Origin: Calditrichota bacterium
GTDB taxonomy: Bacteria; Calditrichota; Calditrichia; Calditrichales; J004
DNA: 32,835 nt
Reading direction: 5' to 3'
NCBI GenBank assembly: GCA_024277115.1
Contig: JAJRVW010000224.1
Coordinates: forward strand, 1 to 32,835
In this document: in pieces, positions 11,552 to 27,433 of the stretch
Numbering within the stretch: the first letter of the stretch is position 1
Layout: the number at the start of each line of letters is the position of its first letter
Translations under genes and position numbers: made by a program
The notes under the pieces: generated by a model
What the model was told of the DNA's origin: nothing
The model's input: the letters and a program-made list of their open reading frames with translations, nothing else
Databases searched by the model: none

Positions 11552-13276
11552 CTACTTCATAAAAATAAGCTTGCCGCTTTTATCCACCCTTTTGCCCGAT
11601 GCCAAATCCTTGCCAGTAATACGGTAAAAATAAATACCACTGGCCTTAAATAAAGAAGCATTGATTTCCTTAAAATCATCCGGGGAAACCGTAGTTTGTG
11701 GAAAAGCCACAACCCGCCGCCCCAGCACATCATAGATGGCCAGTTTTATTCGGCTAAGATTTTTCATATTATAATAAATGGCAGTCCCTACATTAAAGGG
11801 GTTGGATAAATTGGGCTTTGGTTTTGGAAGCGTATCATTTTTTATATACATGTAGGCCGCGTCAATATTAAGCACACCATAGCCCAAAAAATTATCCGGG
11901 CTGTCCGGCTGGCTGGCTGTTTTGCGAATGGCTTCACGCACTTTTGCGGGCGTAATATCCGGGAATGCCTCAACCAGAAGCCCAATCGCGCCGGCGGCCA
12001 GCGGGCTGGCAAATGACGTACCCGCCCCAATTGAAAAATTATTGTCATTGGAAGATGAAGCCCGGTAAACGCCTACGCCCTGCGCGCATACATCCGGTTT
12101 TATGCGGCCATCCACCGTTGGCCCAAAAGAAGATTGCGTCCAATATTGATCCACTTTATTAACGCCGCCCACGGTGATTACAAATTCACCGTCCGCCGGT
12201 GCATTTAAAGAATTTGGTGCATTGGAAAAGCCATTATTCCCGGCAGAATTTACAACAATCAGACCGTTGGCCTCGGCCACAATGGTTGCTTTGGTTATTA
12301 CCGCCGTATTACCGTCCATATCCTCCCAGGTGTAACCATAAAGCTCGCCACTATCAAATCCCTTGTATCCAAGCGAACTGTTCACGACATCGGTGCCCAT
12401 CCGTTCTGCGCGTTCCAGCCCGGCTACCCAGTGGTCTTCTTCAAGGTTTACTTCCTTGCTGTCAATCTCGGTTTTATATAAAAGATAAGAAGCATGGTAA
12501 GCCGAACCAATCAATTTACCCGGCTCGTTCCCGGCAATAACCGAAAGTGTTTGTGTGCCATGAAATCCTTGTGGCCCATAAGCCGAATATTTCCCATCGG
12601 GATCGTCCACACTGTCATCATCGTTGGTAAAATCCCAGGTATCGATAACCTGCAAGGAGTCAAAAACCGTATGGGTTTTGTAACGGTTAAACCCGTCATC
12701 CAGCATGGCGATGTATACGCCTGTGCCCGTGAATCCCCGCTGGTGCATGGCTATTGCACCAATCTGCTCAAGCTGGCCTTGCGATTCGCCATAAAAAAGT
12801 GAATCATCCCCGGACGAAACAGATTTTCCCAATACGGGTTCTCCTGCTTCCTCAACCCGCCTTTTATAACTATTTACCAAACGGATTTCTTTTATAAAAT
12901 TATAATTTTTTATTGTGTTGATTTGCTCGCGGGAAACTGTGGCGCTGATGGCATTTAGCCAGCGGGATTTACTGCGCAACTTTATGATTTTATCGTTGAG
13001 TTGATTGATGTAATCGCCATAGATAGGATAATCGCTCATTTTAATAATGGTCCCGCCTTGCACTTTTTGCCGCCGCTTAATGGCCCTCTCGCTTAGATAA
13101 TTTTCCACATCATAAAAAGGTAAATCTTTTTCCGGCCCTTTGTCCTTAAAAAATATCCACACATCAACCTTATCGCCCGGAGCATGGTTTAAATAATTAA
13201 TAAGTTTCGGGTGAATATCACCGGAATATAAACCGCTAAAAATGAATAGAACTAAGACAAAAATACGATTCAACAT
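11552..13276 (-). CDS. secreted subtilisin-like serine protease (S8) with T9SS-like sorting domain
   Basis: 574 aa from ATG 13276, chosen over an upstream in-frame start because AAAAGGAAAACC precedes it and the signal peptide MLNRIFVLVLFIFSGLYSG then lies at the N-terminus. A propeptide (~20-140) contains the fervidolysin-like stretch VWIFFKDKG. The peptidase S8 domain (~175-480) has the full triad: MLDDG (Asp193), FHGTQ (His239) and GTSFASP (Ser421), with NSAGNNG holding the oxyanion Asn347. The last ~80 residues (from NLSNPFNVGTAIYY) form a FlgD/Por-secretion-like beta-sandwich ending in GKLIFMK. This suggests export through a type IX-like route to the cell surface or medium. The gene stands alone. 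Confidence 0.92.
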   Translation of the reverse strand: MLNRIFVLVLFIFSGLYSGDIHPKLINYLNHAPGDKVDVWIFFKDKGPEKDLPFYDVENYLSERAIKRRQKVQGGTIIKMSDYPIYGDYINQLNDKIIKLRSKSRWLNAISATVSREQINTIKNYNFIKEIRLVNSYKRRVEEAGEPVLGKSVSSGDDSLFYGESQGQLEQIGAIAMHQRGFTGTGVYIAMLDDGFNRYKTHTVFDSLQVIDTWDFTNDDDSVDDPDGKYSAYGPQGFHGTQTLSVIAGNEPGKLIGSAYHASYLLYKTEIDSKEVNLEEDHWVAGLERAERMGTDVVNSSLGYKGFDSGELYGYTWEDMDGNTAVITKATIVAEANGLIVVNSAGNNGFSNAPNSLNAPADGEFVITVGGVNKVDQYWTQSSFGPTVDGRIKPDVCAQGVGVYRASSSNDNNFSIGAGTSFASPLAAGAIGLLVEAFPDITPAKVREAIRKTASQPDSPDNFLGYGVLNIDAAYMYIKNDTLPKPKPNLSNPFNVGTAIYYNMKNLSRIKLAIYDVLGRRVVAFPQTTVSPDDFKEINASLFKASGIYFYRITGKDLASGKRVDKSGKLIFMK

Positions 13277-13353
13277 GGTTTTCCTTTTGTAAATGGGATC
13301 AATCAAAATATAATAATTTGTTCAAGGACCAATAACAAATGAGTGAAGGGTTT

Positions 13354-14571: not shown

Positions 14572-15573
14572 TCATATAGAACCCAGCTTGTACACATCCT
14601 TTGCAATTTTCAGGTACACATTTTTTATAATCTCTTCATGTTTATTTTTGTCGTTCAACGCCGCTAAATTCCACCAGCCCGCCTTATGAAATTCATTCAA
14701 ATTCCACCAACCTGTTTGGTCAAAATGATCGGCATTTATAGGCAATTTTTTTTGACGGATTATTTTAACCCGGCCATTAAACCGCAGGTATTTTGTCCAT
14801 TTTTGCGAGGCTACTGAAACAAGGCCGTCATTATCTCCGGCATTTTTATTTATCAATTTCCAGGAGGGTTGAAAAGGGATGAACACGTCCTCATAATCTT
14901 TTTTGCTATAAAACACCTGGTAGATTACATCGTTGCAGGCTTCGGCTTCCCGGGCAAAAATATTAAAATTATTACAGGCGCGCGTTGTCAAACTATTTAC
15001 ACCTTCAAGGTTCATAAAACTGCCAACCAGCCCCAGCACTTTATCCAAGCCTTGCTCCACAGCATAATCGGCTACAATCGAACCCAAGTGCGGCGTACCG
15101 ATGGTTGTCAGGCTAAAAACGGCATCGGCCATTTTTTGGTTTACGATCATATAGCGCGCATCCAACCCGCCCATGCTATGTGCGATAATATGTACTTTTT
15201 CCTTGCCCGTCTCTTTTAAAATGCGCTCCACTTCCTGCTTTAAATCTTTGGCGCGGGTCTTAACATCTGCAGCCCAACTAACGCGGGAATGGTGCACATC
15301 GATATTATGTTTTTTCAAAAAACTGGCAATGCCTTTAAAATAATGGAAACGGTCAGAGACAAAACTAAAGTCGTAAATAGAAAAGTTGAGGGTGGTAAAG
15401 ATAGAATCGATTAGGTAATCCGGTCGAGCGAAGCCGTGGGCAAGAACAATCGGGTAATCATTTTGCCGGCCATTTTTTTCTTCTTTTGGCGGGTTGAAGG
15501 GCTCAAATAATTGTTGCAGGTCATCATCTTCAAACTCAAAATGATAATCCAGCATTACCTTTTTTTTTCGCAT
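14572..15573 (-). CDS. alpha/beta-hydrolase lipase (triacylglycerol lipase-like)
   Basis: 333 aa. The lipase signatures are clear: PIVLAHGFARPDYL (41-54, oxyanion-hole region), nucleophile elbow AHSMGG (Ser133), GTPHLGS (159-165), DNDGLVS (Asp249) and NADHFDQ (His283), giving a complete Ser-Asp-His triad like that of family I bacterial lipases. No signal peptide is seen, so it is cytosolic or exported by another route. Near the C-terminus GWWNLNEFHK is followed by GWWNLAALND (288-307), a small internal duplication. The start at 15573 lacks a Shine-Dalgarno; ATG 15555 (AAGGTA just upstream, spacing short) is an alternative. It is isolated between two repeat-rich gaps. Confidence 0.85.
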   Translation of the reverse strand: MRKKKVMLDYHFEFEDDDLQQLFEPFNPPKEEKNGRQNDYPIVLAHGFARPDYLIDSIFTTLNFSIYDFSFVSDRFHYFKGIASFLKKHNIDVHHSRVSWAADVKTRAKDLKQEVERILKETGKEKVHIIAHSMGGLDARYMIVNQKMADAVFSLTTIGTPHLGSIVADYAVEQGLDKVLGLVGSFMNLEGVNSLTTRACNNFNIFAREAEACNDVIYQVFYSKKDYEDVFIPFQPSWKLINKNAGDNDGLVSVASQKWTKYLRFNGRVKIIRQKKLPINADHFDQTGWWNLNEFHKAGWWNLAALNDKNKHEEIIKNVYLKIAKDVYKLGSI

Positions 15574-15611
15574 AAGGCCGAAGCTTATTCTAAGATTTCA
15601 AATTTCATTTA

Positions 15612-16153
15612 TCCTTGTTCGATCTTTCTTTTGAATCTTGAACAGGGAATACACACTAGCGATTTCTGATTTTTAATTCTTCAATCACCATTCGTTAATC
15701 CTTGTTCGATGTTCTTTTGATTTTTGAACAAGGAACACAGAGATAGTGAAAGTTCTTTCAAATTAACTTATAAGTTAAACGCGAAGCCGCGAAGGACGCA
15801 AAGGAAAACTGTAAAAAGCTTTTTATGTTCTTTGCCCAATATGAGCCGAAAAAAATTTACCCCGTACAGAACTGGGATTCAAAAGGTGCAGAGAACCTAA
15901 AAACTTTTTATTTTTTATAAACTAATAGTTTTTCTTTGCGTCCTTCGCGACTCTGCGTTTGAATATTTTCAAGATCGATCACTACCCTACATAACCCTAA
16001 AAAAGTTATTCCGTAAGAACCGGGATTCAAAAGACGAAGAGGCTTTCTCTAAGTTCTGGGTTGTAAGTGACTAACGATTTGTGTTCTTTTTATTCTTCAA
16101 TCGCCATGCGTTAATCCTTGTTCGATGTTCTTTTGATTTTTGAACAAGGAACA
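15612..16153. repeat. degenerate intergenic repeat cluster
   Basis: The 620-base gap 15574-16193 has no gene. A ~60-base sequence ending TTTTTGAACAAGGAACAC occurs at about 15680-15741 and again at about 16093-16153 with two differences. A shorter, diverged copy lies at 15612-15651. An inverted pair built on CGAAGGACGCAAAG lies at ~15779-15808 and ~15930-15959. GAACTGGGATTCAAAAG (~15878) and GAACCGGGATTCAAAAG (~16018) are another direct pair. The repeats contain inverted segments such as CCTTGTTC/GAACAAGG. Confidence 0.65.
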
Positions 16154-16193
16154 CTCAATTACTATTTTTGATATTACAACCTTATCATCATTC

Positions 16194-16493
16194 CTACGAT
16201 TTTCCGAAAACAGAAATGCCGATTCCAAAGCCAAATAACACAATCCACAGATAGGGATCAGAGCCCTGAACCAATGCAATAACCCCACCAACAATACAAG
16301 AGCCCGCAATCAAGCCGCTACGCAGCCCGGCCATCGGGTTAGAATTATTCGTATCATCAATGGTCGATTCCCAAAACCGTGTTGTATTGTGGATTATTTC
16401 CGGGAGGCGCATAACCAAATCGACCATCTCTGGCACGGCTTGTAAAACATGTTGACCTAAAAGTTTCGGGTTATAACGTTCCTTATAAATTTT
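16194..16493 (-). pseudogene. severed C-terminal part of the UbiB/ABC1-family gene
   Basis: Directly after the TAA that ends the upstream frame (16494-16496), the same frame stays open for 99 codons: KIYKERYNPKLLGQHVL..., then MPEMVDLVMRLPEII, ending after two hydrophobic helices (SGLIAGSCIVGGVIALV and LWIVLFGFGIGISVFG). UbiB-family proteins normally end with an R-Y-x-P segment, a helical stretch and two membrane helices, so this is the missing tail. A GTG at 16436 could start an 80-aa fragment, but it has no good ribosome site. Either the gene is broken by a point mutation (for example CAA to TAA) or the stop is read through, or the base is a sequence error. Confidence 0.75.
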
Positions 16494-17930
16494 TTAGATA
16501 TGTTTTTTTGAAACGGATGGAATATCCAAAGTGGGGTCAAGAAACAATCCAACACCTTCAAAAGTTACCAGGGCTTTTACCATCAAAGTCATTTCCACAG
16601 GGAAGAATACACGGTATTTAGCACCGATGGAAATGGATTCCAAAATAAGCTTGGCGATACTAAAATTACCATAGGCCGCCTGTAAAGCAAAGCGGTTGGC
16701 AAGGTCCGTAACCGCACGCTTAAAACCAATGCCATCGCCATTTTTGCCCAAGGTGGCCATGGAAAATAGAAATTTGGCTGCGTTTTCAATATCGCCATTT
16801 ACCAGATAATAAAAATAATAAAGCATGTTTCGTTTGATTTTATCATCAAAGCGTCCCACCATGCCCACATCGATAAATCCCACTTTCGGTCCGGGCAAAA
16901 CGATCAAATTACCGGCATGTAAATCAGCATGAAAAAAACCATCCTGGTACAACATTTTGATTATCGAGCCTGTGCCTAAATCAACAACTTTATGAATCTC
17001 CTCTTTGTCATAAAGCTCAAAAATTGTTGGATCATTGGGTTTTACACCGTCAAAAAACTCCATGCAAAGAACGTCTTCCGAGCTGTACTCACGATATATT
17101 TTCGTAAAAACAACATCTTGATAATCCACAAAATTTGCCGTAAACATATCGGAGTGGTCGGCCTCGTAGGTCAGGTCCACCTCTTTCTCGGTATAGCGGC
17201 AAAACTCGTTAATGATGGTTTTAGGCTGGTATTGGGGAATTATAATCGCCAGCACATTGCCCAAAATTTTTAGCAATTTTATATCCGATAAAATCGTTTC
17301 TCGGATGTGTGGCTTTATGACTTTTAAGACCACCTTTTCGGCATTGACTGTGGTTGCCAAATGAACCTGTGCGATGGATGCCGTCCCAACCGGGTGTTCA
17401 TCAATATAGACAAACATTTCACTTACAGGCCGTTTCAGGCTTTTTTCGATAATTCCCAAAATGTATTCAAAAGGGATTTCAGGCAGTTTATCCAAAAGCT
17501 GCTTGAGTTCATCAGTGATCAGGCGCGGTAAAATATCTTCGCGGATGGCCATAATCTGCCCAAGTTTTATATAGGTTGGGCCAAGTATTTCCAAACGGCG
17601 GCGGAGTTGTACCTCGAAGGGTTGTTTGCGTAGTTCTTTTTTGATAAATATTTTTAGGAAAAATGCGGTGGTGCGTGAAAACGGTGAATGTAACCCTTTA
17701 CGCTTATGTTCGGGCAGTGCATTTACCTGGGCAATTTGCCCGCCAACTATCAGGCCGATAACATGGCGGTATAAAATGAGAAAACGTTTAAAAACACCTT
17801 TATAAGATGCAAATGGGTTAAAGGATATTTTTGGGCGATCGTCTTCCTGCGGGGCGTCCAATTTTTTTTGAGAAGTTTCTGTTGTCTCCTTTTTCATTAC
17901 GCCCCTTTTATTTTCTTTAATTTCAGTCAT
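16494..17930 (-). CDS. AarF/ABC1/UbiB-family atypical kinase, prematurely stopped
   Basis: 478 aa to the in-frame TAA; 578 codons if read through. Family landmarks are present: the KxGQ motif (YIKLGQIMAIREDILP, 120-135), the Ala-rich loop ASIAQVH (184-190), invariant lysine VVLKVIKP (Lys203), HADLHAGN (334-341) and the DFG-equivalent IDVG (353-356). ABC1 kinases bind ATP unusually and support ubiquinone or other isoprenoid-lipid metabolism at the membrane. The region before the stop (TFEGVGLFLDPTLDIPSVSK) is where full-length relatives continue into the RYNP-helix-two-TM tail, found here beyond the stop. Start 17930 lacks a Shine-Dalgarno; ATG 17897, after AAAAGGGG, is a good alternative. No quinone genes are adjacent. 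Confidence 0.85.
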   Translation of the reverse strand: MTEIKENKRGVMKKETTETSQKKLDAPQEDDRPKISFNPFASYKGVFKRFLILYRHVIGLIVGGQIAQVNALPEHKRKGLHSPFSRTTAFFLKIFIKKELRKQPFEVQLRRRLEILGPTYIKLGQIMAIREDILPRLITDELKQLLDKLPEIPFEYILGIIEKSLKRPVSEMFVYIDEHPVGTASIAQVHLATTVNAEKVVLKVIKPHIRETILSDIKLLKILGNVLAIIIPQYQPKTIINEFCRYTEKEVDLTYEADHSDMFTANFVDYQDVVFTKIYREYSSEDVLCMEFFDGVKPNDPTIFELYDKEEIHKVVDLGTGSIIKMLYQDGFFHADLHAGNLIVLPGPKVGFIDVGMVGRFDDKIKRNMLYYFYYLVNGDIENAAKFLFSMATLGKNGDGIGFKRAVTDLANRFALQAAYGNFSIAKLILESISIGAKYRVFFPVEMTLMVKALVTFEGVGLFLDPTLDIPSVSKKHI

Positions 17931-18238
17931 AATCTTATTGGTTTATCAAAAAAGATCAAACACTAAACTTAGTAATAAGTATACATAAAATTTTATTCAG
18001 CAAAAAGCATTTTTTAATGATTGAAAACCAGAATCTGCCAATTTATTTACACAAAAGAAATTAAAATATTAACCGACCACCAATTCACAAATGCTTACAT
18101 AAATGGTCCGTTGTATTTAAAATTTTTGTTTTGGCCAGACCGATTAAATCAAGCAGCACAGCCGGTTCTTTCCACATCTTTTTTCATTAAGCTTAAAACC
18201 GCCACACTTATTTATCACCTAAAATATGATTTACAAAA
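17931..18238. other. gene-free spacer upstream of the UbiB-family gene
   Basis: 308 bases of AT-rich sequence between the hemolysin III stop and the UbiB-family start, both on the minus strand. It should carry the UbiB promoter. TTGCTG followed 14 bases later by TATACT (minus strand, around 17980-18005) is the nearest thing seen, with spacing too short to trust. A 73-codon plus-strand frame here looks non-coding. Confidence 0.4.
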
Positions 18239-18880
18239 TTAAATATATTTATAAACCATCCAAAAATGGGCAAAGCTGCCCGCTAAAATAAACAGATGAA
18301 AAATTTCGTGGAAACCAAAAAATCCGGGAAAAGGGTTTGGTTTTTTAAATGCATAAATCACCGCGCCCACAGAATAAAAAAATCCACCGGCAAACAGCCA
18401 TAATAACCCGGTAAAGTCCATCACCTGTGAAATTGGCCAAACACCGATCGCAATAATCCAGCCCATTACCAGGTAGATGGCCGTATATAATTTCCGTGGT
18501 GCGTTCATCCAAAATATTTTCATGAACAAACCGGCAATGGTTATAGCCCAAATAATGCCAATCATCGTCCAGCCCCAGCCACCGCGTAAAGTTACCAGGC
18601 ACATGGGCGTGTAGGATGCGGCGATAAAAACAAAAATCATCACATGGTCAATCTTACGGAACACCTCGAGCCGTTCTTCCGAAAGTGGCAACCAATGGTA
18701 CAAAGTGCTGGCGCTGTAAAGTAAAATCATCCCGGCGCCAAAAATGGAAAATGAAACCGTGTGCCAAATTGTTAATGGCGGCATTGGACGGTTTAATAAA
18801 AACACGAGGGCAAATATGGCAAAAATAATCCCGATAAAATGGGTCAGGCCGTTCATTGGCTCACGAAAATATTTATTCAT
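18239..18880 (-). CDS. hemolysin III / PAQR-family seven-helix membrane protein
   Basis: 213 aa, standard length. Seven hydrophobic helices run through the protein. Signature segments are FREPMNGLTHFIG (5-17), SASTLYHWLP (~56-65), KIDHVMIFVFIAASYTP (~76-92) and the C-terminal HEIFHLFILAGSFAHF with the conserved histidines. The family (HlyIII, YqfA/TrhA) is related to adiponectin-type receptors. Bacterial members have been linked to membrane-lipid homeostasis, and the haemolysin name is historical. It is in the inner membrane. It is the gene upstream of the UbiB-family kinase, but 308 bases separate them, so no operon is assumed. Confidence 0.9.
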   Translation of the reverse strand: MNKYFREPMNGLTHFIGIIFAIFALVFLLNRPMPPLTIWHTVSFSIFGAGMILLYSASTLYHWLPLSEERLEVFRKIDHVMIFVFIAASYTPMCLVTLRGGWGWTMIGIIWAITIAGLFMKIFWMNAPRKLYTAIYLVMGWIIAIGVWPISQVMDFTGLLWLFAGGFFYSVGAVIYAFKKPNPFPGFFGFHEIFHLFILAGSFAHFWMVYKYI

Positions 18881-18919
18881 ATAAGTTGTGGCTCATTTTA
18901 AATAAAAAGAATCCAAACA

Positions 18920-18956
18920 AAAAAAGAAAACGCCCCGGGTTACAAAAACCCGGAAC
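18920..18956 (-). terminator. rho-independent terminator of the phasin gene
   Basis: CCGGGTT and AACCCGG form the core stem (about 18934-18952), extended by ACGTT/GGCGT. Read on the minus strand a T-rich tract (TTTTCTTTTTTTG) follows. It lies 36 bases after the phasin stop codon. Confidence 0.75.
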
Positions 18957-18991
18957 GTCTCTCACTTAATTAACTCAATTATTTTTTAGTT

Positions 18992-19405
18992 TTAAGCTTT
19001 TTTTGCAGCTGGTTTTGAATCCAGTTTTTTTGCTAAAACTGCAACAATCTCGGTAAGCTTGTCTACTTTTTCCGTAAGGTCTTGCATTTCTTTGTGAGAA
19101 GCAACGCCAACTTTTTCAAAAGCTGTGGTCATCGCATCTTCAACATAATTAAAAAGATTGGGGATTTCATCCAATTTGGCTTTGGCTTTTTTCTCAAGTT
19201 TCTCGCCTTTGCCTTCAAGCTCCTGCCCTTTTTCTTTCATCTTATTGAAGAATTCTTCGCCTTTTTCTTCCAACTGCTTGCCCTGGTCTTTCATTTTATT
19301 AAACAGAACTTCGCCTTCTTCTTCGATCATTGAAAAAGCGCCTAAGCCGGCTAACCAGATTTCCCGTGCTTTATCTGTAACTGCGTTTGCATTTGTTGTT
19401 GCCAT
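18992..19405 (-). CDS. phasin-family protein (PHA granule-associated, PhaI-like)
   Basis: 137 aa. The N-terminal AREIWLAGLGAFSMIEEEGE (13-32) is the hallmark of poly(hydroxyalkanoate) granule-associated proteins. The middle is a Lys/Glu-rich amphipathic coiled coil with a near-repeat FNKMKDQGKQLEEKGE / FNKMKEKGQELEGKGE. The C-terminus has a leucine-heptad segment (LTEKVDKLTEIVAVLAKKL) and an Ala/Lys tail. Phasins coat storage granules and set their size. AGGAGAAATATC precedes the start. It lies 43 bases downstream of phaR on the same strand, so PhaR probably controls its own operon including this gene. No PHA synthase is in the window. Confidence 0.88.
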   Translation of the reverse strand: MATTNANAVTDKAREIWLAGLGAFSMIEEEGEVLFNKMKDQGKQLEEKGEEFFNKMKEKGQELEGKGEKLEKKAKAKLDEIPNLFNYVEDAMTTAFEKVGVASHKEMQDLTEKVDKLTEIVAVLAKKLDSKPAAKKA

Positions 19406-19448
19406 GATATTTCTCCTAAAATTAAATTATACTTTTGTTAAATTTCCT

Positions 19449-19889
19449 TTAATTGCCCGATTTTTCGGGCTCCTTATCTTTTGCTTTTTTACTTAGTGTA
19501 TCAATTGCATTTTCCAACGACTCAATCCGTTTTTTTAACTCGCCCATATCACTCTTGCTGCTTTTATCAAAAATCCGTGTTAAAGATTCCGGCATCAGGC
19601 TGTCAATTCCTTCCCGGACTTGTTTAATGCCATCATCGATCATGCTATTGCCCCAGCGGATCACATCGTGTAGCATTTCATTGGAAAGCGGGTTGCGCCC
19701 TTTTTTACCTTCTTCAAAAATTACCTGTGTAAGCGTGTGTGTTGTAATATCTTTTCCGGTCACATTGTCAATCACCTGAATATCAACATCATCGCGTATT
19801 AACTGTGCGATTGCTTCCAGTGAGATATAAGCACGTTTTTCAGTATCGTACATTTTACGGTTTTCATATCGTTTTATAACTCGGGCCAT
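19449..19889 (-). CDS. phaR: polyhydroxyalkanoate synthesis regulator PhaR
   Basis: 146 aa. The N-terminal DNA-binding domain is almost canonical: IKRYENRKMYDTEKRAYISL (5-24), then EAIAQLIRDDVDIQVIDN and GKDITTHTLTQVI. The second half is an amphipathic helix (ELKKRIESLENAIDTLSKKA), probably for oligomerisation or granule contact. In known systems PhaR represses phasin genes and leaves DNA when PHA granules form. GAGGAAAAAG gives a strong start at 19889. A near-consensus promoter lies upstream (19922-19950), with a palindrome just beyond it as a candidate operator. phaR and the phasin gene form a two-gene unit. Confidence 0.92.
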   Translation of the reverse strand: MARVIKRYENRKMYDTEKRAYISLEAIAQLIRDDVDIQVIDNVTGKDITTHTLTQVIFEEGKKGRNPLSNEMLHDVIRWGNSMIDDGIKQVREGIDSLMPESLTRIFDKSSKSDMGELKKRIESLENAIDTLSKKAKDKEPEKSGN

Positions 19890-19921
19890 CTTTTTCCTCT
19901 TTCATTATTGCGTTCGGGAAG

Positions 19922-19950
19922 AATATAACACAGCGCGTTAAGTTTGTCAA
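19922..19950 (-). promoter_or_regulatory. consensus-like promoter of phaR-phasin operon
   Basis: On the minus strand TTGACA (19945-19950) and TATATT (19922-19927) are separated by exactly 17 bases. This is the strongest promoter seen in the window, 33 bases from the phaR ATG. Confidence 0.8.
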
Positions 19951-19960
19951 CACTTTTTTG

Positions 19961-19971
19961 ACACAATGTGT
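19961..19971. promoter_or_regulatory. candidate operator palindrome ACACAATGTGT
   Basis: An 11-base palindrome (ACACA-ATGTGT) lies 10 bases upstream of the phaR -35 box. A partly similar, imperfect dyad (AACACAGCGCGTT) sits in the promoter spacer. It could bind PhaR itself; this is inference. The rest of the gap 19972-20210 is AT-rich and shows no gene. Confidence 0.35.
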
Positions 19972-20210
19972 TATTTTTTTAACGATTAATTTTGTTACTG
20001 ATTGTTTTTATTGCACTTGTGTGATTTTATTATTTCTATATGATGCGTTATATTTATTAAACCACTGCGTCATTAACCTAAAACTAAACCTATCCTGGTT
20101 CAATTTTATCACCCGCTGTTACAATCATTATTATCACATTTCCCACTTGTATTATATGCCTTAAATAACTATTCTTATTGATCACTTCTTTTAAACCCCG
20201 GGAAAATATT

Positions 20211-21341
20211 ATGGCAAAAAAGGCGCCGATTACCAAAGAACAAATCGAGCAAAATAAGCATATTTATTATGAACTTTTTAACAGCCATTATGCCGATGGC
20301 CTCGTTAAAAATTTAATCGATCATATCGACACCTATTATTTCCGCACACGTTATATCGGCTTTGACGATTATCCACAGCGCAATAAAGAAGGTCAGCCAC
20401 TGCTGTTTGTCAGCAACCATTCCGGTATGGCTTTCCCGTGGGATGCTATTTTATTTACAGCCGGCCTATACCGCCTGAATAATTATGAAATGAAAAATGC
20501 CGTGCGCACGTTAACTGCCCCGATGCTTTCCAAATCGAATTTGATGAACCCTTTTCTTATACCCGATTTCTGGAAAAAAGCCGGAGGGATTGACGCTACG
20601 TTTTTAAATTTTGAAACGATGATGCATTATAAAGAATCTAATTTGATGATGTACCCGGAAGGTGTGCCCGGCATCGGTAAAGGTTTTCCCAAGCGCTACC
20701 AACTGCAACGTTTTGCCACCTCTTTTATAAGGATCAGCATAAAATACAAGGCCGATGTAATCCCGGTGGCAACCGTGAATGGCGAATATATAAACCCCTA
20801 CGCCTTTAAATCCGAACCCTTGAACAAGCTGTCCCAACAACTGGGCATTCCATTTTTACCTATCGGGATTATGACTTTGTTGATTCCATTTCAGCCCTGG
20901 CTTTTTTATTTTGGCTTTCCCGCAAAACTGGTGTATGTAAAAGGGAAAAGGATAAGACCTTACGAGATGATCGACAAACCGTATGAAGAAATTACCGATG
21001 AAGAGTTTCGTGAAATAGCGGATAAAGTTAAAGAACAGATGCAGGCAGAATTAACGGCCGCTGTGGAGAAATATGGCAAAGTACATTATAAATATGGCGA
21101 GCTTTTTTCTTTGTGGATTAAAAACCTTAAAAAATTTCCGTACTTTTTACCATGTTGCTGGGCATCCATTTTTACAGAATACGATTCCCGTTTTAAATTG
21201 AAGGGAAAGATTGAAACCTTTAAGCTTCGTCTTTCAAGCATCATTACAATCATAAAACACAACCCGATAATAATTGCTTTTTTTATCCCGATTTTAGGCT
21301 GGATACCCATTTTAATGCGTGGAATGAAACGGCCAAAATAG
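20211..21341 (+). CDS. PlsC-like glycerol/lysophospholipid acyltransferase
   Basis: 376 aa from ATG 20211; an upstream TTG (20178) is in frame but unsupported. The acyltransferase motifs are visible: SNHSGMAFPWD (68-78, with His70 and Asp78), and YPEGVPGIGKGFPKRYQLQR (148-167, the PEG motif). The His-to-Asp spacing is wider than the classical H-x4-D, as in the glycerol-acyltransferase branch with NHSG/NHAG sequences. A hydrophobic C-terminus (IIIAFFIPILGWIPILM) suggests membrane attachment. It should move an acyl chain from acyl-CoA or acyl-ACP to a glycerol-phosphate or diglyceride acceptor. It is divergent from phaR; a link to storage-lipid metabolism is possible but unproven. Confidence 0.82.
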   Translation: MAKKAPITKEQIEQNKHIYYELFNSHYADGLVKNLIDHIDTYYFRTRYIGFDDYPQRNKEGQPLLFVSNHSGMAFPWDAILFTAGLYRLNNYEMKNAVRTLTAPMLSKSNLMNPFLIPDFWKKAGGIDATFLNFETMMHYKESNLMMYPEGVPGIGKGFPKRYQLQRFATSFIRISIKYKADVIPVATVNGEYINPYAFKSEPLNKLSQQLGIPFLPIGIMTLLIPFQPWLFYFGFPAKLVYVKGKRIRPYEMIDKPYEEITDEEFREIADKVKEQMQAELTAAVEKYGKVHYKYGELFSLWIKNLKKFPYFLPCCWASIFTEYDSRFKLKGKIETFKLRLSSIITIIKHNPIIIAFFIPILGWIPILMRGMKRPK

Positions 21342-21373
21342 TGAGAATTCCTAATCTCGTTACCCCCAAATCT

Positions 21374-21398
21374 CGTTCCCAAACTAAGTTTAGGAACG
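21374..21398. terminator. stem-loop after the acyltransferase gene
   Basis: CGTTCC-C-AAAC pairs with GTTT-A-GGAACG around TAA, with one C/A mismatch. No T tract follows. It lies between convergent genes and could serve as a weak terminator for either. Confidence 0.4.
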
Positions 21399-21431
21399 GG
21401 AGTTGGGCAGATATTTGGCCTAATCTAATTC

Positions 21432-21617
21432 TCATTCTTTTTCGATAATTATTGAAGCCTTTATGTTTTTTGATTGAAACACATCTTTCAATTGTTCAAC
21501 GATTGTTTCTTCAACTTTACGTTCAACATCAATTAAAAGGGGCGCTAAGCGGGAAACAAGCCGCCCTTTTTCCTGCTCAACAATTTCCTGAATATTATGA
21601 ATTTTTATTTTAATCAT
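21432..21617 (-). CDS. small hypothetical protein downstream of the GMC oxidoreductase
   Basis: 61 aa, charged and helical (EIVEQEKGRLVSRLAPLLID, then VERKVEETIVEQLKDVF), flanked by short strands KIKIHNI and IKASIIIEK. No family is recognised. It begins 16 bases after the GMC oxidoreductase stop on the same strand, with a modest ribosome site, so it is probably a translated operon member. There is no signal peptide. Confidence 0.5.
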   Translation of the reverse strand: MIKIKIHNIQEIVEQEKGRLVSRLAPLLIDVERKVEETIVEQLKDVFQSKNIKASIIIEKE

Positions 21618-21633
21618 TAAGGTTCATCTAATC

Positions 21634-23244
21634 TTAGTGTGCCAATTCCCTGCTTAAAGGTGCGCTGTTTTTTGCCTTCTCTGGGATTTTACTCATGGCC
21701 CGTTCGGTGATCGCTAAAATACTCAATGAGGGATTTACGCCAGGGTTAGCAGAGATGGCCGATCCATCACAAATATACATATTTTTATAGCCAAAAACGT
21801 GGTTGTCTTTATCGATCACACCCTCCGATATATCTTTGCCCATAACCGCGCCGCCCAAAATATGTGCCGTAGTTGGGATGCCCAGCATGGTTTCTGTAAG
21901 TAACGAGGTGGCCTTTCCGTTTACAATCTTAGCATATTTTTGTGCCAACTCCTCTGCTTCCGGGATAAACGAAGTTGGCCGTTTCCCTTTTGTTACCGAT
22001 GTTTTCATGCCAAACAAACCTTTGGAAAAACGTAAGGTGCTGTCAAGGCTTTGCATAAATAGCAAGATTTGTGTGTGCTTGGCCCAGTCTCTTACAAAAT
22101 AAGCGCGCAGATTATCCCACGGGTGCAGAATATAATCTTTAATAATTTTAAAAATCCGGGTAAAGATTGAACCGCCAAAAACCAGCGGGGTCATCAATAC
22201 ACGCCAAAAACCGGAACCGGCCGGATATCGGACAGGCTCGAGGTGGCTGTGCTCATCGGTATGTACGATGGAGCCAATGGCCACGCCTTCAGAGAAAACG
22301 GTTTCTTTGTCAAATGCCGTAATGCCAATCAGGCTTTCTGAGTTAGTACGAATGCCCATGCCCAACTGATCGGATAAATTTGGCAACGATTTCTTTTTTA
22401 GGCCAAGTAAAAGTTTAATCGAGCCCAGCGCGCCCCCGGCAAAAATAATATTGCGGGCCTTAATGCTGCCTTTTTTCTTTATGATTTTTGTAGACGATTT
22501 CCATTTTACCTCATAACCGGAATTGCCCGTATCACCATTTAAAGGCAACACATCATACACCAACGATTCGGCTTGTATTTTAACGCCATTTTTTTGCGCC
22601 AGATAAAGATAATTTTTATCCAACGTGTTTTTTGCATTATAACGGCAACCGACCATGCAACCTGCACACAAAGTACATCCTGCACGCTCCGGCCCTTCAC
22701 CGCCAAAATATGGATCGGGCACGGTAACTTCCGGCTCGCCGAAGAATACGGCCACATTGGTGGGCGAGTAGCTTTCGGATTTACCGATTTCCTCTGCCAG
22801 TTTTTTTAGGGCCAGGTCACCGGTTTTCAGGGCTTCGTTCTTTACCGCGCCCATCATTCTTAAAGCTGTTTGATAAAAAGGTTTTAACTCCTCTTCCCAG
22901 TCGGCTAGATGTGCCCAGGAATCACTTTTAAAAAAAGAGGATTTTGGAATGGGCAAGGTATTGGCATATACAAGTGAACCGCCGCCCACGCCCACGCCGG
23001 AAAGCGTTGCCACATGCCTGAAGAATGTAATTTTAAAAAAGCCGTGAAATTTTACAAAAGGCATCCACAACCAGCGTTTTAAATTCCAGTTGGTCTTCGG
23101 GAAATCTTCAGCCTTGTACCATTTCCCCTTTTCCATAACAAGGACTTTGTAGCCTTTTTCTGACAGGCGTAATGCCGAGGCCGCCCCACCAAACCCGGAA
23201 CCGATTATTATAAAATCATAGTCATACGTGTGCTCTGTACCCAT
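21634..23244 (-). CDS. GMC-family FAD oxidoreductase (cholesterol-oxidase-like)
   Basis: 536 aa. The FAD-binding Rossmann motif FIIIGSGFGGAASALRLSEK (11-30) opens the protein. GVGVGGGSLVYANTLP (83-98) is the second FAD motif. The C-terminal HILGGAVMGKD and CDGSAISANPGVNPSLSILA contain the conserved catalytic His and Asn/Pro blocks. Residues 190-200 hold four cysteines spaced C-x2-C-x2-C-x3-C just before RYNAKNTLDKNYL, as in the steroid/cholesterol-oxidase-like branch. The substrate is probably an alcohol of a sterol, terpenoid or fatty molecule. AAGGATAAATC precedes the ATG. It follows the HMG-CoA reductase gene by 50 bases on the same strand, so an isoprenoid connection is plausible. Confidence 0.88.
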   Translation of the reverse strand: MGTEHTYDYDFIIIGSGFGGAASALRLSEKGYKVLVMEKGKWYKAEDFPKTNWNLKRWLWMPFVKFHGFFKITFFRHVATLSGVGVGGGSLVYANTLPIPKSSFFKSDSWAHLADWEEELKPFYQTALRMMGAVKNEALKTGDLALKKLAEEIGKSESYSPTNVAVFFGEPEVTVPDPYFGGEGPERAGCTLCAGCMVGCRYNAKNTLDKNYLYLAQKNGVKIQAESLVYDVLPLNGDTGNSGYEVKWKSSTKIIKKKGSIKARNIIFAGGALGSIKLLLGLKKKSLPNLSDQLGMGIRTNSESLIGITAFDKETVFSEGVAIGSIVHTDEHSHLEPVRYPAGSGFWRVLMTPLVFGGSIFTRIFKIIKDYILHPWDNLRAYFVRDWAKHTQILLFMQSLDSTLRFSKGLFGMKTSVTKGKRPTSFIPEAEELAQKYAKIVNGKATSLLTETMLGIPTTAHILGGAVMGKDISEGVIDKDNHVFGYKNMYICDGSAISANPGVNPSLSILAITERAMSKIPEKAKNSAPLSRELAH

Positions 23245-23294
23245 TTTGATTTATCCTTAAACCCGGCAATTTTTAACTACTTTACCGAAAAAAT

Positions 23295-24839
23295 TTAGCG
23301 GTTCCGTCCATATTGTTCGTGGCTGGAAACCCAATCGAGGGATGAAATGGCCGATGCAAGGGAAATTTCTCCCGCCAACACAACACCCGCCACAATCTCT
23401 GCAAGTTTATTGACCGTGCCCCGCCCCGTACAGCCCAGTAAGTCGAGGCATTCACGCTGGGTGGCCAAATGTGTACCTCCGCCATACGTGGCCACAATCA
23501 ACGAAGGGATAGTCATGGAAATATACAAATCCTTCTCTTCGGTCAGCTCGGTATAAATCACCCCAGCAGAACTTTCTGCTACATTGGCCACATCCTGCCC
23601 GGTGGCAATAAACATGGCAGTAATGCCATTGGCCGAGTGCAAGCCGTTATTGTTCGCGCCCGAAAGAAAGGAACCGACATTGGAAATATTGGCATGGTGC
23701 GTAAGGCCTTCAGGCTTAACCCGCATTTGCTGTATCAACACATCGCGTGGGATGATCGCTTCGGCAACAACACGCTTGCCCCGGGTGCGCATAATATTTA
23801 TCTGTGATGCTTTTTTATCTGTGGCAAAATTGGATTCCAGAAAGAAATGATCGATGGTTTTATTATTTTCCATAATCAAGCTGCATGCTGCAAATGTTGC
23901 GCGTCCAACCATATTTTGTCCGGCGGCATCCCCGGTGGAAAAGTTAAAGCGCAGGTAAGCAAATTTATTGGCCAGATAGTGCTGGATGTACAATAGTTTT
24001 GCCACGCTTGAGGTAGCCTCGGCTTCCTCGCGAATTTTATCCATGTTTTCATTTATCCACTTTACAAACTCCCTGGCGCCACGGGCATCATCGAAAATAA
24101 ACACCGGGGCGCGTTGCATAGCATCGCCGACCACGGTGCACTTAACGCCACCGGCCAGGTTTAAAACTTTTATTCCACGATTATAAGAAGCGACCAAAGT
24201 GCCTTCGGCCGTGGCCATGGGGATTAAAAAATCGCCCATGGCATGCTCGCCATCCACATTTAGTGGCCCTGCAAAACCGATTGGGACTTGTGCCACCCCG
24301 GTAAAATGTTCACAATTTCCCTCGGTAATATGCGGATCAAACGAATACTTTCTAATATGGTTTAATTTCGATCCGGTAAACTTTTCCACAAAGTCCTGAC
24401 GTTTTTTTATGATAGCATCGGAATAATCGTCTTTGTTATCGCGAGGTAAACGGACAATATGCTCAGTAGGCTCAGAGACTGAATCGCGCACATCAATTTT
24501 TAACTTATCACCAAATTGATCGGCGCCAAAAACAATTTTGATAGCGTGCTTGCCAAGTTCTAATTTTTTTATAGAAATATGAAAATTTAAGGCTGTTTTG
24601 AGAGGAAAATTTATTATCCCTTCTTTTTGGAAACGCTCCACTCCAAATTTTTCGCCTTCGTCAATATCCATTTGTATGGTATCCAGAGGAATTTTTTTAT
24701 CATCTATTTCGAGAGAAGAAATACCGGTTATTTTAGTATCGCTCAAACGGTTTTTAAGGGAAAACTGCACGCCGTCTTTCCCATTTTGCAAGCTGCCGAA
24801 GGTGTAGAGTAGTTTTAAAAGTAGGCTGGGAATTTTCAT
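23295..24839 (-). CDS. hydroxymethylglutaryl-CoA reductase with extra N-terminal domain
   Basis: 514 aa from ATG 24839, chosen over an earlier in-frame start because AGGAGATTTAT precedes it. It makes mevalonate from HMG-CoA with NAD(P)H. The catalytic residues can be matched: Glu212 (ATAEGTLVAS), Lys342 (ATDKKASQIN), Asp416 (IATGQDVANV) and His507 (SSHEQYGRNR). GDAAGQNM (303-310) is the cofactor-binding DAMGMN equivalent. The arrangement and C-terminal His resemble class I enzymes. Residues ~15-120 form an additional beta-rich domain (GVQFSLKNRLSD, SLEIDDKKI, LELGKHAIKIVF) that resembles the small beta-sandwich of C-deglycosylase beta subunits; this is only resemblance by eye. The GMC oxidoreductase follows. 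The gene implies a mevalonate route to isoprenoids. Confidence 0.92.
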   Translation of the reverse strand: MKIPSLLLKLLYTFGSLQNGKDGVQFSLKNRLSDTKITGISSLEIDDKKIPLDTIQMDIDEGEKFGVERFQKEGIINFPLKTALNFHISIKKLELGKHAIKIVFGADQFGDKLKIDVRDSVSEPTEHIVRLPRDNKDDYSDAIIKKRQDFVEKFTGSKLNHIRKYSFDPHITEGNCEHFTGVAQVPIGFAGPLNVDGEHAMGDFLIPMATAEGTLVASYNRGIKVLNLAGGVKCTVVGDAMQRAPVFIFDDARGAREFVKWINENMDKIREEAEATSSVAKLLYIQHYLANKFAYLRFNFSTGDAAGQNMVGRATFAACSLIMENNKTIDHFFLESNFATDKKASQINIMRTRGKRVVAEAIIPRDVLIQQMRVKPEGLTHHANISNVGSFLSGANNNGLHSANGITAMFIATGQDVANVAESSAGVIYTELTEEKDLYISMTIPSLIVATYGGGTHLATQRECLDLLGCTGRGTVNKLAEIVAGVVLAGEISLASAISSLDWVSSHEQYGRNR

Positions 24840-24945
24840 TATAAATCTCCTAAAATAATGGATTGATAAATTTAAGGTTGGATTGCTAAGATATAAAAAA
24901 ATAACGGACTTGAAAAGGACGGAATGAATTATTTTAAGAAAAGAA

Positions 24946-24979
24946 GTGCCGGACAAAGCAATTAAGCAATCCCCGGCAC
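24946..24979 (-). terminator. terminator of the beta-helix protein gene
   Basis: GTGCCGG (24946-24952) pairs with CCGGCAC (24973-24979) around a 20-base loop. On the minus strand it is followed by TTCTTTTCTT. It lies just after the stop at 25000. Confidence 0.55.
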
Positions 24980-24999: not shown

Positions 25000-26649
25000 C
25001 TAGGGGAGATACAACATTTTTTTTGTTTCGGATTTACCGGATGAAATGAGCTGGTAATGATACATCCCGGCTGCCACCTTTACGCCGAAATTGTTTGTCG
25101 CGTTCCAGCTAATCGTATATTTCCCGGGCAGATAAGAACCATTCACAAGCTCCCGTACAAGCTGTCCGGTTGATGAATAAATCAATAAACGGACGGTACC
25201 GGGTTCTATAATATTAAACTCAATGGTCGTCTGTGGATTAAACGGGTTGGGGTAATTTTGTGCTAAAACATAATCTTCCGGGCCTGCTAAACCAGCAGAT
25301 AGAATGCTGGTCGGGATGCTTTCAAACTCATACGCCCCAATATCAAATTGTGTGCCTTGTGGACGGGAAAGCCCATTTTTATCCGTTGTAACCAAGGCAA
25401 TTTCTGTCCCTCCATCAATTAAGAGCGACCCTTCCTTCAAACGGTAATCATGGTTATCGCTGTCTTCAAAATCGGATGTGCCGGCCGCTTGATTGCTGCC
25501 ATCTACCGCCAGGTCGGGCTTGGAACCCCAAAAAGCATTATTTAGAATTTCCCAGCTTCCAACGCCGCCATCGCCCCCGGCAAAGGTAAATGTATTTTGC
25601 AGGCCGCTGCCAAAAGTGCTGTTATATAATTTAAGGTTGGCTACATCATCCTCTGCCCGAAAGGCTTTTTCACAATTATAAACCACCGTATTCATGATTG
25701 TAACATTGGCATTGCCACGTGTGCCACGCATTCGAAAAGCAATTTCACAATCGTAAACCGTCACACCATCAAGCACCGCTTCAATTTTTTCTTTTAAATT
25801 AAAAGCAGCCATATTGTTGATATTTCCATTTTGAAAACCAAAAACCGTTGTATTTTTTATGGTGACCTGCATGCGGTCGATGGCATCCCAGTTGTCTTTT
25901 ACCAACTTTGTATCCAAGGCATTTTCTCCAGGGATATTTCCTATTTTCCAGCCACTGTTAAAATCCTCTGTCAATGGCCCGGTCCAAAATGTGCAATCTT
26001 CGATCCATAAACTATCAGGTGTGTTGGTATCCCTGTCCGGGTCTGTTTGGACACAATCGCCGGAGACCTGATAGATTTCCGTATTTTTTATGGTGATGCC
26101 TTTGGTGTCGGTAAGGACGATGCCATGCGCGTCTTTTTGGCTGGAATAAGTTCCGTTCAAAAAATGATGGATGGTACAGTTTTCCACAAGAAGGTTATTT
26201 GCCTTGTCCGCATCGATGGCATCACGTTCCCCATTGCGGATTTCCAGATTTCGCAGAATTACATTTTCGGATCTGGATAATTCTATACAATCACTTGGTT
26301 CCTGGTTATGGTCAATCAGAAGGTTTTCTACGATTATAAAGTCTGCGCTGATATCTATGCTAAAAATCTGTGGTTCATCGCCACTGCCGTATGCCCCAAA
26401 AAGTATCGGAGCAGAGGCATCGCCACTGGATGAAATATTTAACGTATTTGCCCAAACCTCGCCACGTTTTAACAAGATTTCATCACCGGGGACAAAATTT
26501 TTATTTTTAACAAGGCTCACATTCTGCCAGGCGGTGCCTTCTGTTTTACCATCACTATTGTCATTGCCAGAGCTTGCATCTATATAATACGTTTCAGCAT
26601 GCAGCAAAGAGGCGAGCATAATTAAAGCAATTAATGTAAACTTGTTCAT
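25000..26649 (-). CDS. secreted right-handed beta-helix protein with T9SS-like sorting domain
   Basis: 549 aa from ATG 26649; the frame stays open further upstream but AAAGGAAAAC and a clean signal peptide (MNKFTLIALIMLASLLHAE) mark this start. Residues ~20-440 have the parallel beta-helix pattern of polysaccharide-active or adhesive proteins: YYIDASSGNDNSDGKTEGTA, then repeated short strands such as VENCTIHHF, IKNTEIYQVSG, IEDCTFWTG and IKNTTVFGFQNG. A segment near 455-480 (LIDGGTEIALVTTDKNGLSR, then FDIGAYEFE) is the usual end of such proteins. The last ~85 residues contain NYPNPFNPQTTIEFNI and GKYTISWNATN, a FlgD-like/T9SS-type C-terminal domain. It could bind or cleave a polysaccharide; no catalytic residues are recognisable. 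Confidence 0.88.
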   Translation of the reverse strand: MNKFTLIALIMLASLLHAETYYIDASSGNDNSDGKTEGTAWQNVSLVKNKNFVPGDEILLKRGEVWANTLNISSSGDASAPILFGAYGSGDEPQIFSIDISADFIIVENLLIDHNQEPSDCIELSRSENVILRNLEIRNGERDAIDADKANNLLVENCTIHHFLNGTYSSQKDAHGIVLTDTKGITIKNTEIYQVSGDCVQTDPDRDTNTPDSLWIEDCTFWTGPLTEDFNSGWKIGNIPGENALDTKLVKDNWDAIDRMQVTIKNTTVFGFQNGNINNMAAFNLKEKIEAVLDGVTVYDCEIAFRMRGTRGNANVTIMNTVVYNCEKAFRAEDDVANLKLYNSTFGSGLQNTFTFAGGDGGVGSWEILNNAFWGSKPDLAVDGSNQAAGTSDFEDSDNHDYRLKEGSLLIDGGTEIALVTTDKNGLSRPQGTQFDIGAYEFESIPTSILSAGLAGPEDYVLAQNYPNPFNPQTTIEFNIIEPGTVRLLIYSSTGQLVRELVNGSYLPGKYTISWNATNNFGVKVAAGMYHYQLISSGKSETKKMLYLP

Positions 26650-26869
26650 GTTTTCCTTTCTAAACTTCCTTTTTGAGATAACCTCTTTGCAACCATTGTA
26701 CCAAAAATTCATTGGCAGCAAAATCAACAAAATGAAAAAAAAACTTATCTTAATATTATTAATACTGTGAAGAATTTTATCACTCTTTTGCGTGCAATTA
26801 ATATCTGTTTCTTGAAATCCCCAAGCTTTGGGCGTACATTGTTGGCAAGCTAAAACAGTGGAGCCACAG

Positions 26870-27433
26870 ATGGGTATGCCCGCAGAAAAAACGAACGTAT
26901 CGATTAAAGAATACCTGGAGTTGGAAGATGCAGCCATAGAAAAGCACGAGTTTATCAATGGTGAAATATTTGCATTTGCCGGCGCATCGTTTAACCATGC
27001 TGAAATAATATCAAATATTAGTTTCTGCATTAGAAGCAAAATGAAAAAAAAATGCAGGGTTCTGTCCAATGACATAAAAGTGACTGTGGAAAATTCCTTT
27101 TACTATCCTGATATCCTTGCCCTGTGCAATGAACCCCAATTTTACGAAGAGCGGAACGATACAATCACAAACCCTGTTTTGATAATTGAAGTTTTATCCA
27201 AATCTACAATGGATTTTGACCGCGGCAGTAAATTTGAAGCATACCGAAAAATAGCAACCTTGCAGGAATATGTTTTAATTGACCAATACCGCGTCCATGT
27301 TGAGCAGTATACGCGCAACAAGAAAGAATGGATTTTAAGGGAGTTTGATCTCGAAACGGACACGCTCACCTTTTCCTCTCTAGCAACTGGTGTAAAAATA
27401 AATGATTTTTACAAGAATATTTCTTTTAAATAA
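26870..27433 (+). CDS. Uma2-family (DUF820) restriction-endonuclease-fold protein
   Basis: 187 aa from ATG 26870, preceded by GTGGAG; a second ATG lies 6 bases on, and an upstream TTG is unsupported. The Uma2 pattern is complete: SIKEYLELED (11-20), KHEFINGEIF (25-34), FNHAEI (41-46), PDILAL (Asp81) and LIIEVLSKST (Glu107, Lys111), which together give the PD-(D/E)xK core. These proteins are common in FCB bacteria and cyanobacteria as single genes without known partners, and their role is not settled. It is cytosolic. The adjacent M19 dipeptidase gene begins 61 bases downstream but seems unrelated. Confidence 0.87.
   Translation: MGMPAEKTNVSIKEYLELEDAAIEKHEFINGEIFAFAGASFNHAEIISNISFCIRSKMKKKCRVLSNDIKVTVENSFYYPDILALCNEPQFYEERNDTITNPVLIIEVLSKSTMDFDRGSKFEAYRKIATLQEYVLIDQYRVHVEQYTRNKKEWILREFDLETDTLTFSSLATGVKINDFYKNISFK

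Follow-up and report, generated by a model that had tools for sequence, protein, structure and literature searches.

An in-frame TAA in a UbiB-like kinase gene of a Calditrichota draft genome is probably an assembly artefact

The UbiB-like gene and its neighbours

The window analysed here is a stretch of 32,835 nucleotides from the draft genome of a Calditrichota bacterium (4.97 Mb in 255 contigs). On its reverse strand lies a UbiB-like reading frame running from position 17930 to 16194 (Table 1). The frame starts with ATG at 17930 and continues for 478 codons to a TAA, after which another 99 codons follow before a second TAA at 16194-16196. The first-pass annotation had described a product of 478 residues ending in ...SKKHI and a tail that follows the stop without a frameshift. 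We found exactly this arrangement: codon 479 is the TAA at 16494-16496, the same frame then reads KIYKERYNPKLLGQHVL..., and no frameshift was seen between 17930 and 16194. If the stop were read through, the product would have 578 residues.

The protein matched the ABC1 profile PF03109 over residues 145-386 (E 4.6e-59; 199.9 bits, cut-off 22.9; profile positions 2-242 of 244). In an alignment of 26 sequences the KxGQ motif was intact, with K122, G124 and Q125 invariant, and the catalytic HxDxHxGN motif (334-HADLHAGN-341) and the metal-binding DxG residues D354 and G356 were likewise invariant; all the kinase motifs precede the TAA. Sequence relation could also be detected to the solved structures of ADCK3/COQ8A (5yjz, E 2.5e-16) and of bacterial ABC1 proteins (4ped/5i35, E 6e-9). 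The score against TIGR01982, the UbiB equivalog of the ubiquinone pathway, was below the NCBIfam cut-off (314.8 bits against 487.55), and the gene further differs from this equivalog in that it adjoins phasin and PhaR genes, not ubiE-ubiJ. It resembles the ABC1/AarF/ADCK/UbiB family (PF03109) in its complete kinase-like domain, in KxGQ and HADLHAGN and in its C-terminal helical hairpin, whereas its identity to the second ABC1 proteins of related genomes is only about 30%. Most likely it is an ordinary AarF/ABC1/UbiB-like atypical kinase of 578 codons with a C-terminal hairpin that would anchor it in the membrane. A search for a second intact paralogue, which the first-pass annotation had proposed, yielded no other ABC1 copy in the organism's own genome; across the whole genome there were only Ser/Thr-kinase-like matches.

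Table 1. Features of the UbiB-like locus (window coordinates)
Feature	Position	Strand	Basis
5' part, 478 codons, ABC1/AarF/UbiB-like atypical kinase, core complete	16494..17930	-	ORF list, PF03109, alignment
TAA stop, codon 479	16494..16496	-	sequence; sense in sister and in orthologues with a residue there
3' tail, 99 codons and terminal TAA, same frame	16194..16493	-	constraint, orthologue alignment
C-terminal helical hairpin, likely membrane anchor	16206..16337	-	AlphaFold model, hydropathy
Codon 276, Thr vs Pro, C>A type	17103..17105	-	orthologue alignment
TrhA/HlyIII (PAQR) neighbour	18239..18880	-	
Phasin-like neighbour, linkage to UbiB-like gene conserved	18992..19405	-	
PhaR-like regulator, linkage to UbiB-like gene conserved	19449..19889	-	

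An esterase, a GMC oxidoreductase and an HMG-CoA reductase are also encoded nearby. Gene order at window positions 14572-24956 is conserved across Calditrichota, KSB1 and Balneolia/Rhodothermia (loci L010, L012, L016, L017, L042, L045, L093, L097 and others). The conserved set consists of the PhaR-like regulator, the phasin-like protein, the UbiB-like kinase, the esterase and an acyltransferase, sometimes joined by the GMC oxidoreductase and the HMG-CoA reductase; a role of this neighbourhood in lipids or storage granules is a guess.

Two further features of the window were noticed. The stretch separating the esterase gene from the UbiB-like gene holds an inverted repeat (15777-15810 and 15927-15960) with 34-nt arms that are 88% complementary and 116 nt apart; 1.2 Mb of this genome contain three occurrences of the arm, and 0.8 Mb of the sister genome described below contain none. 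Proteins with type IX secretion sorting domains are encoded at 25000-27075 and 11552-13306, one being a choice-of-anchor Q protein and the other a subtilase.

Conservation and predicted structure of the tail

For comparison we used a sister genome of the same genus but a different species, which is syntenic with the window. Its orthologue is a single uninterrupted ORF of 578 codons, with a Gln codon at the position of the TAA. About 75 further orthologues, taken from genomes of Calditrichota, KSB1, Balneolia and Rhodothermia, have no stop at codon 479 or at any other aligned position. The column at codon 479 is variable (K, R, M, L, T, A, S, N or Q), and the tail is carried by 25 of the 26 aligned orthologues.

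The tail had been said to look conserved, and the comparison with the sister species bears this out. The two tails align from end to end with 93% amino acid identity; they differ at 45 third, 10 first and one second codon position, and together with the end-to-end alignment this pattern identifies the 99 downstream codons as real coding sequence. The pN/pS ratio was 0.061 for the tail and 0.159 for the body of the gene, and every window of tail length within the body gave a higher value than the tail (0.071-0.325). Judged from these substitutions, strong purifying selection acts on the tail. With synonymous sites close to saturation, even a small part of the branch passed without selection would have left visible amino acid changes; as no relaxation was seen, the stop either arose very recently on this scale or does not exist in the organism. 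The description in the first-pass annotation, with its three options of a recent stop, read-through and a base error, therefore holds: the stop is unique to this genome and the tail behind it is unrelaxed.

An AlphaFold model was built with 26 orthologues (mean pLDDT 78). In this model the TAA falls within a predicted helix (residues 470-485); beyond it come a long helix (488-524) and a hairpin (532-554/559-575); pLDDT in the hairpin region was about 51-84 in ten-residue blocks. Hydropathy windows above 1.6 were obtained at 535-557 only, so that hydropathy clearly supports the first helix of the hairpin and weakly the second. The claim that two helices form the normal end of the family agrees with the modelled hairpin and with the orthologues, which reach the same end. 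Truncation at the TAA would reasonably be expected to remove a membrane anchor, if the stop is real and the hairpin acts as one.

It might also be thought that the gene ends naturally at codon 479, or that it is split into a kinase of 478 residues and a re-initiated membrane peptide of 80 residues, for which a short ORF beginning with GTG (GTG at 16436; 16194-16436) is available. We give this almost no weight: none of the approximately 75 orthologues ends at or near codon 479, an outcome that by the first-pass annotation's own account would have refuted it, the sister gene is one ORF of 578 codons, and the TAA interrupts a predicted helix.

Lone in-frame stops across the assembly

Whole-genome domain searches revealed about 14 lone in-frame stops in roughly 44,000 conserved-domain codons of the draft genome. 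They comprised four TAA and two TAG in response regulators (PF00072), three TAA and one TGA in histidine-kinase ATPase domains (PF02518), two TAA in ABC ATPases (PF00005), one TAA in a short-chain dehydrogenase (PF00106) and one TAA, in a weak match, in an RND-like protein (PF00873). In a LolD-like ABC ATPase the stop replaces the catalytic Walker-B Glu (LAD*PTGNLD, the asterisk marking the stop). One of the kinase cases proved on inspection to be a frameshift: at 17809-18110 of L125, on contig C6, the domain is spread over two frames with an apparent shift of one base, and by inspection this indicates that indel errors or mutations occur in the draft genome too.

In the sister genome, no conserved-domain stops were present among the listed matches to PF00005, PF00072 (for which part of its matches were listed), PF00106 and PF00873, and there were none in 109 matches to PF02518. 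A chimeric protein search of the sister genome gave a few stops, all in weak or edge matches, and none of these falls within the residue-level alignments around the sites compared. When 76 sister ORFs were compared with 1.2 Mb of the draft genome, four lone stops were detected in the latter (UbiB-like, TrxR-like, rhodanese and CcoP-like genes); in the reciprocal comparison, no lone stop in the sister genome survived inspection. DNA inspection added further stops in the draft genome, in genes for FabD, PlsX, GlgX, LeuA, a GAF protein, an Hdr-like protein, an M16 peptidase and others. The contigs with lone stops include C88, C18, C7, C28, C61, C67 and C70, and the stops on them are mostly TAA at Glu positions. 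No shared sequence motif around the stops was apparent by eye.

The argument is carried by these homology-based counts. A first codon-score scan for interrupted genes had thresholds that missed the UbiB-like gene itself. A dicodon scan turned up candidates at much the same density in the two genomes because adjacent genes in the same frame dominate its output, and it was used only to list candidates; a number of these lacked an orthologue in the sister genome and were left unclassified.

An excess of lone stops over the nearest relative, as seen here, is expected of pseudogenes caused by assembly error. Cooley and Wright found that pseudogenes with internal stops track assembly error with an R2 of 0.96, and that low-quality reads raise internal stops more than they raise frameshifts, with low coverage among the chief causes of spurious internal stops (PMC11017572). 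Our cases are like theirs in that lone stops sit in otherwise intact conserved genes, substitutions far outnumber indels and the stops are absent from the nearest relative; the published work used isolate assemblies with a ground truth, whereas the nearest genome available for comparison here belongs to another species.

The stop could also be a real and very recent nonsense mutation, in which case the population would have a protein of 478 residues lacking the membrane hairpin and the tail would not yet have decayed. A stop confined to one genome, an intact tail without a frameshift and a plausible single-step change from a Gln codon all fit such a mutation. It would, however, require that a few per cent of the genes, including those for FabD, PlsX, LeuA and CcoP, had recently and simultaneously acquired nonsense mutations, a combined loss that a living cell could not tolerate, and there is no second ABC1 gene to cover the loss of this one. 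Many simultaneous recent nonsense mutations, several of them hitting fatty-acid synthesis or respiration genes, with intact constrained tails and few frameshifts, are unlike the decay of a living bacterial genome and resemble base miscalls; we consider a real mutation unlikely, though it is the chief competing reading. The genome-wide excess of lone stops, absent from the conserved domains of the sister, favours instead the base error, one of the options named at the outset. The TAA at codon 479 is thus probably a wrong base, or a minor variant that entered the consensus, of a draft metagenome assembly. The assembly carries many stop-creating substitutions genome-wide, of which this TAA would be one, and living cells most likely make the full protein of 578 residues. 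Low coverage or a damaged or oxidised template may be the source of error, with minor strains as another candidate. That the UbiB-like stop in particular is an error is the most likely reading of the sequences, which we infer and do not regard as proven.

Substitution types and the reading of the stops

With the sister genome as a guide, the residues replaced by stops were Glu (10), Gln (3), Gly (2), Lys (2, uncertain), Ser (1) and Trp (1); the Walker-B stop was assigned to Glu from the family motif, not from the sister residue. Changes of the G>T/C>A type accounted for 13 of the 19, where uniform substitution would give 27% (P about 2e-4). This class is tied to oxidised guanine in library preparation and is a known class of damage and sequencing error (PMC5994075). 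The UbiB-like TAA itself would be a C>T change if the ancestor matched the sister, and would then fall outside the dominant class, a point against the error reading.

Most of the lone stops being TAA, about half of them at Glu positions, and the tails being constrained, read-through or suppression also has to be considered, by which an in-frame UAA would be tolerated or decoded as sense and the full protein made. Several observations make this very unlikely. TAA is still the main terminator (58%, against 61% in the sister), the lone stops include TGA and TAG, which stand at Gly and Trp positions, and TAA replaces Gln and Ser as well. The 34 distinct tRNAs read, a set short of six low-scoring genes, had no suppressor anticodon, ochre suppressors included. 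In a gene with conserved read-through, relatives would share the stop; it is missing from the sister and from about 75 orthologues, so there is no conserved recoding site. Reassignment of the single codon TAA was ruled out by its unchanged terminal use, by the TGA and TAG cases and by the several residue types replaced. We find it scarcely credible that the lineage tolerates in-frame UAA in hundreds of genes, essential ones included, often at former Glu or Gln codons; such tolerance would have to work through inefficient termination or an unrecognised suppressor, with UAA remaining the main terminator.

Two tests of the error rate were less favourable to the assembly-error reading. An implied rate of about 1-2 errors per 1,000 bases predicts one or two mismatches in tRNA stems, and none was found in the 34 distinct tRNAs (2,604 nt; the six weakest tRNA genes left out), which argues mildly against a high uniform error rate. 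In conserved blocks, G>T missense changes gave no clear excess over the reverse in a test of low power. Both tests have low power at such an error rate, but on their account some probability has to be kept for a real mutation.

If the stop were accepted as it stands, the gene would be annotated as truncated or called a pseudogene, and the organism would be regarded as having lost a membrane-anchored kinase. We think it best to treat the UbiB-like stop as an assembly artefact and not as a real feature, and that single stop codons in this assembly are not trustworthy. Counting lone stops in large conserved families and comparing them with the nearest genome offers a cheap test for this. A second base error in the same gene is possible at codon 276, which in this sequence encodes Thr and in all 25 of the 25 aligned relatives Pro, a difference of the C>A type.
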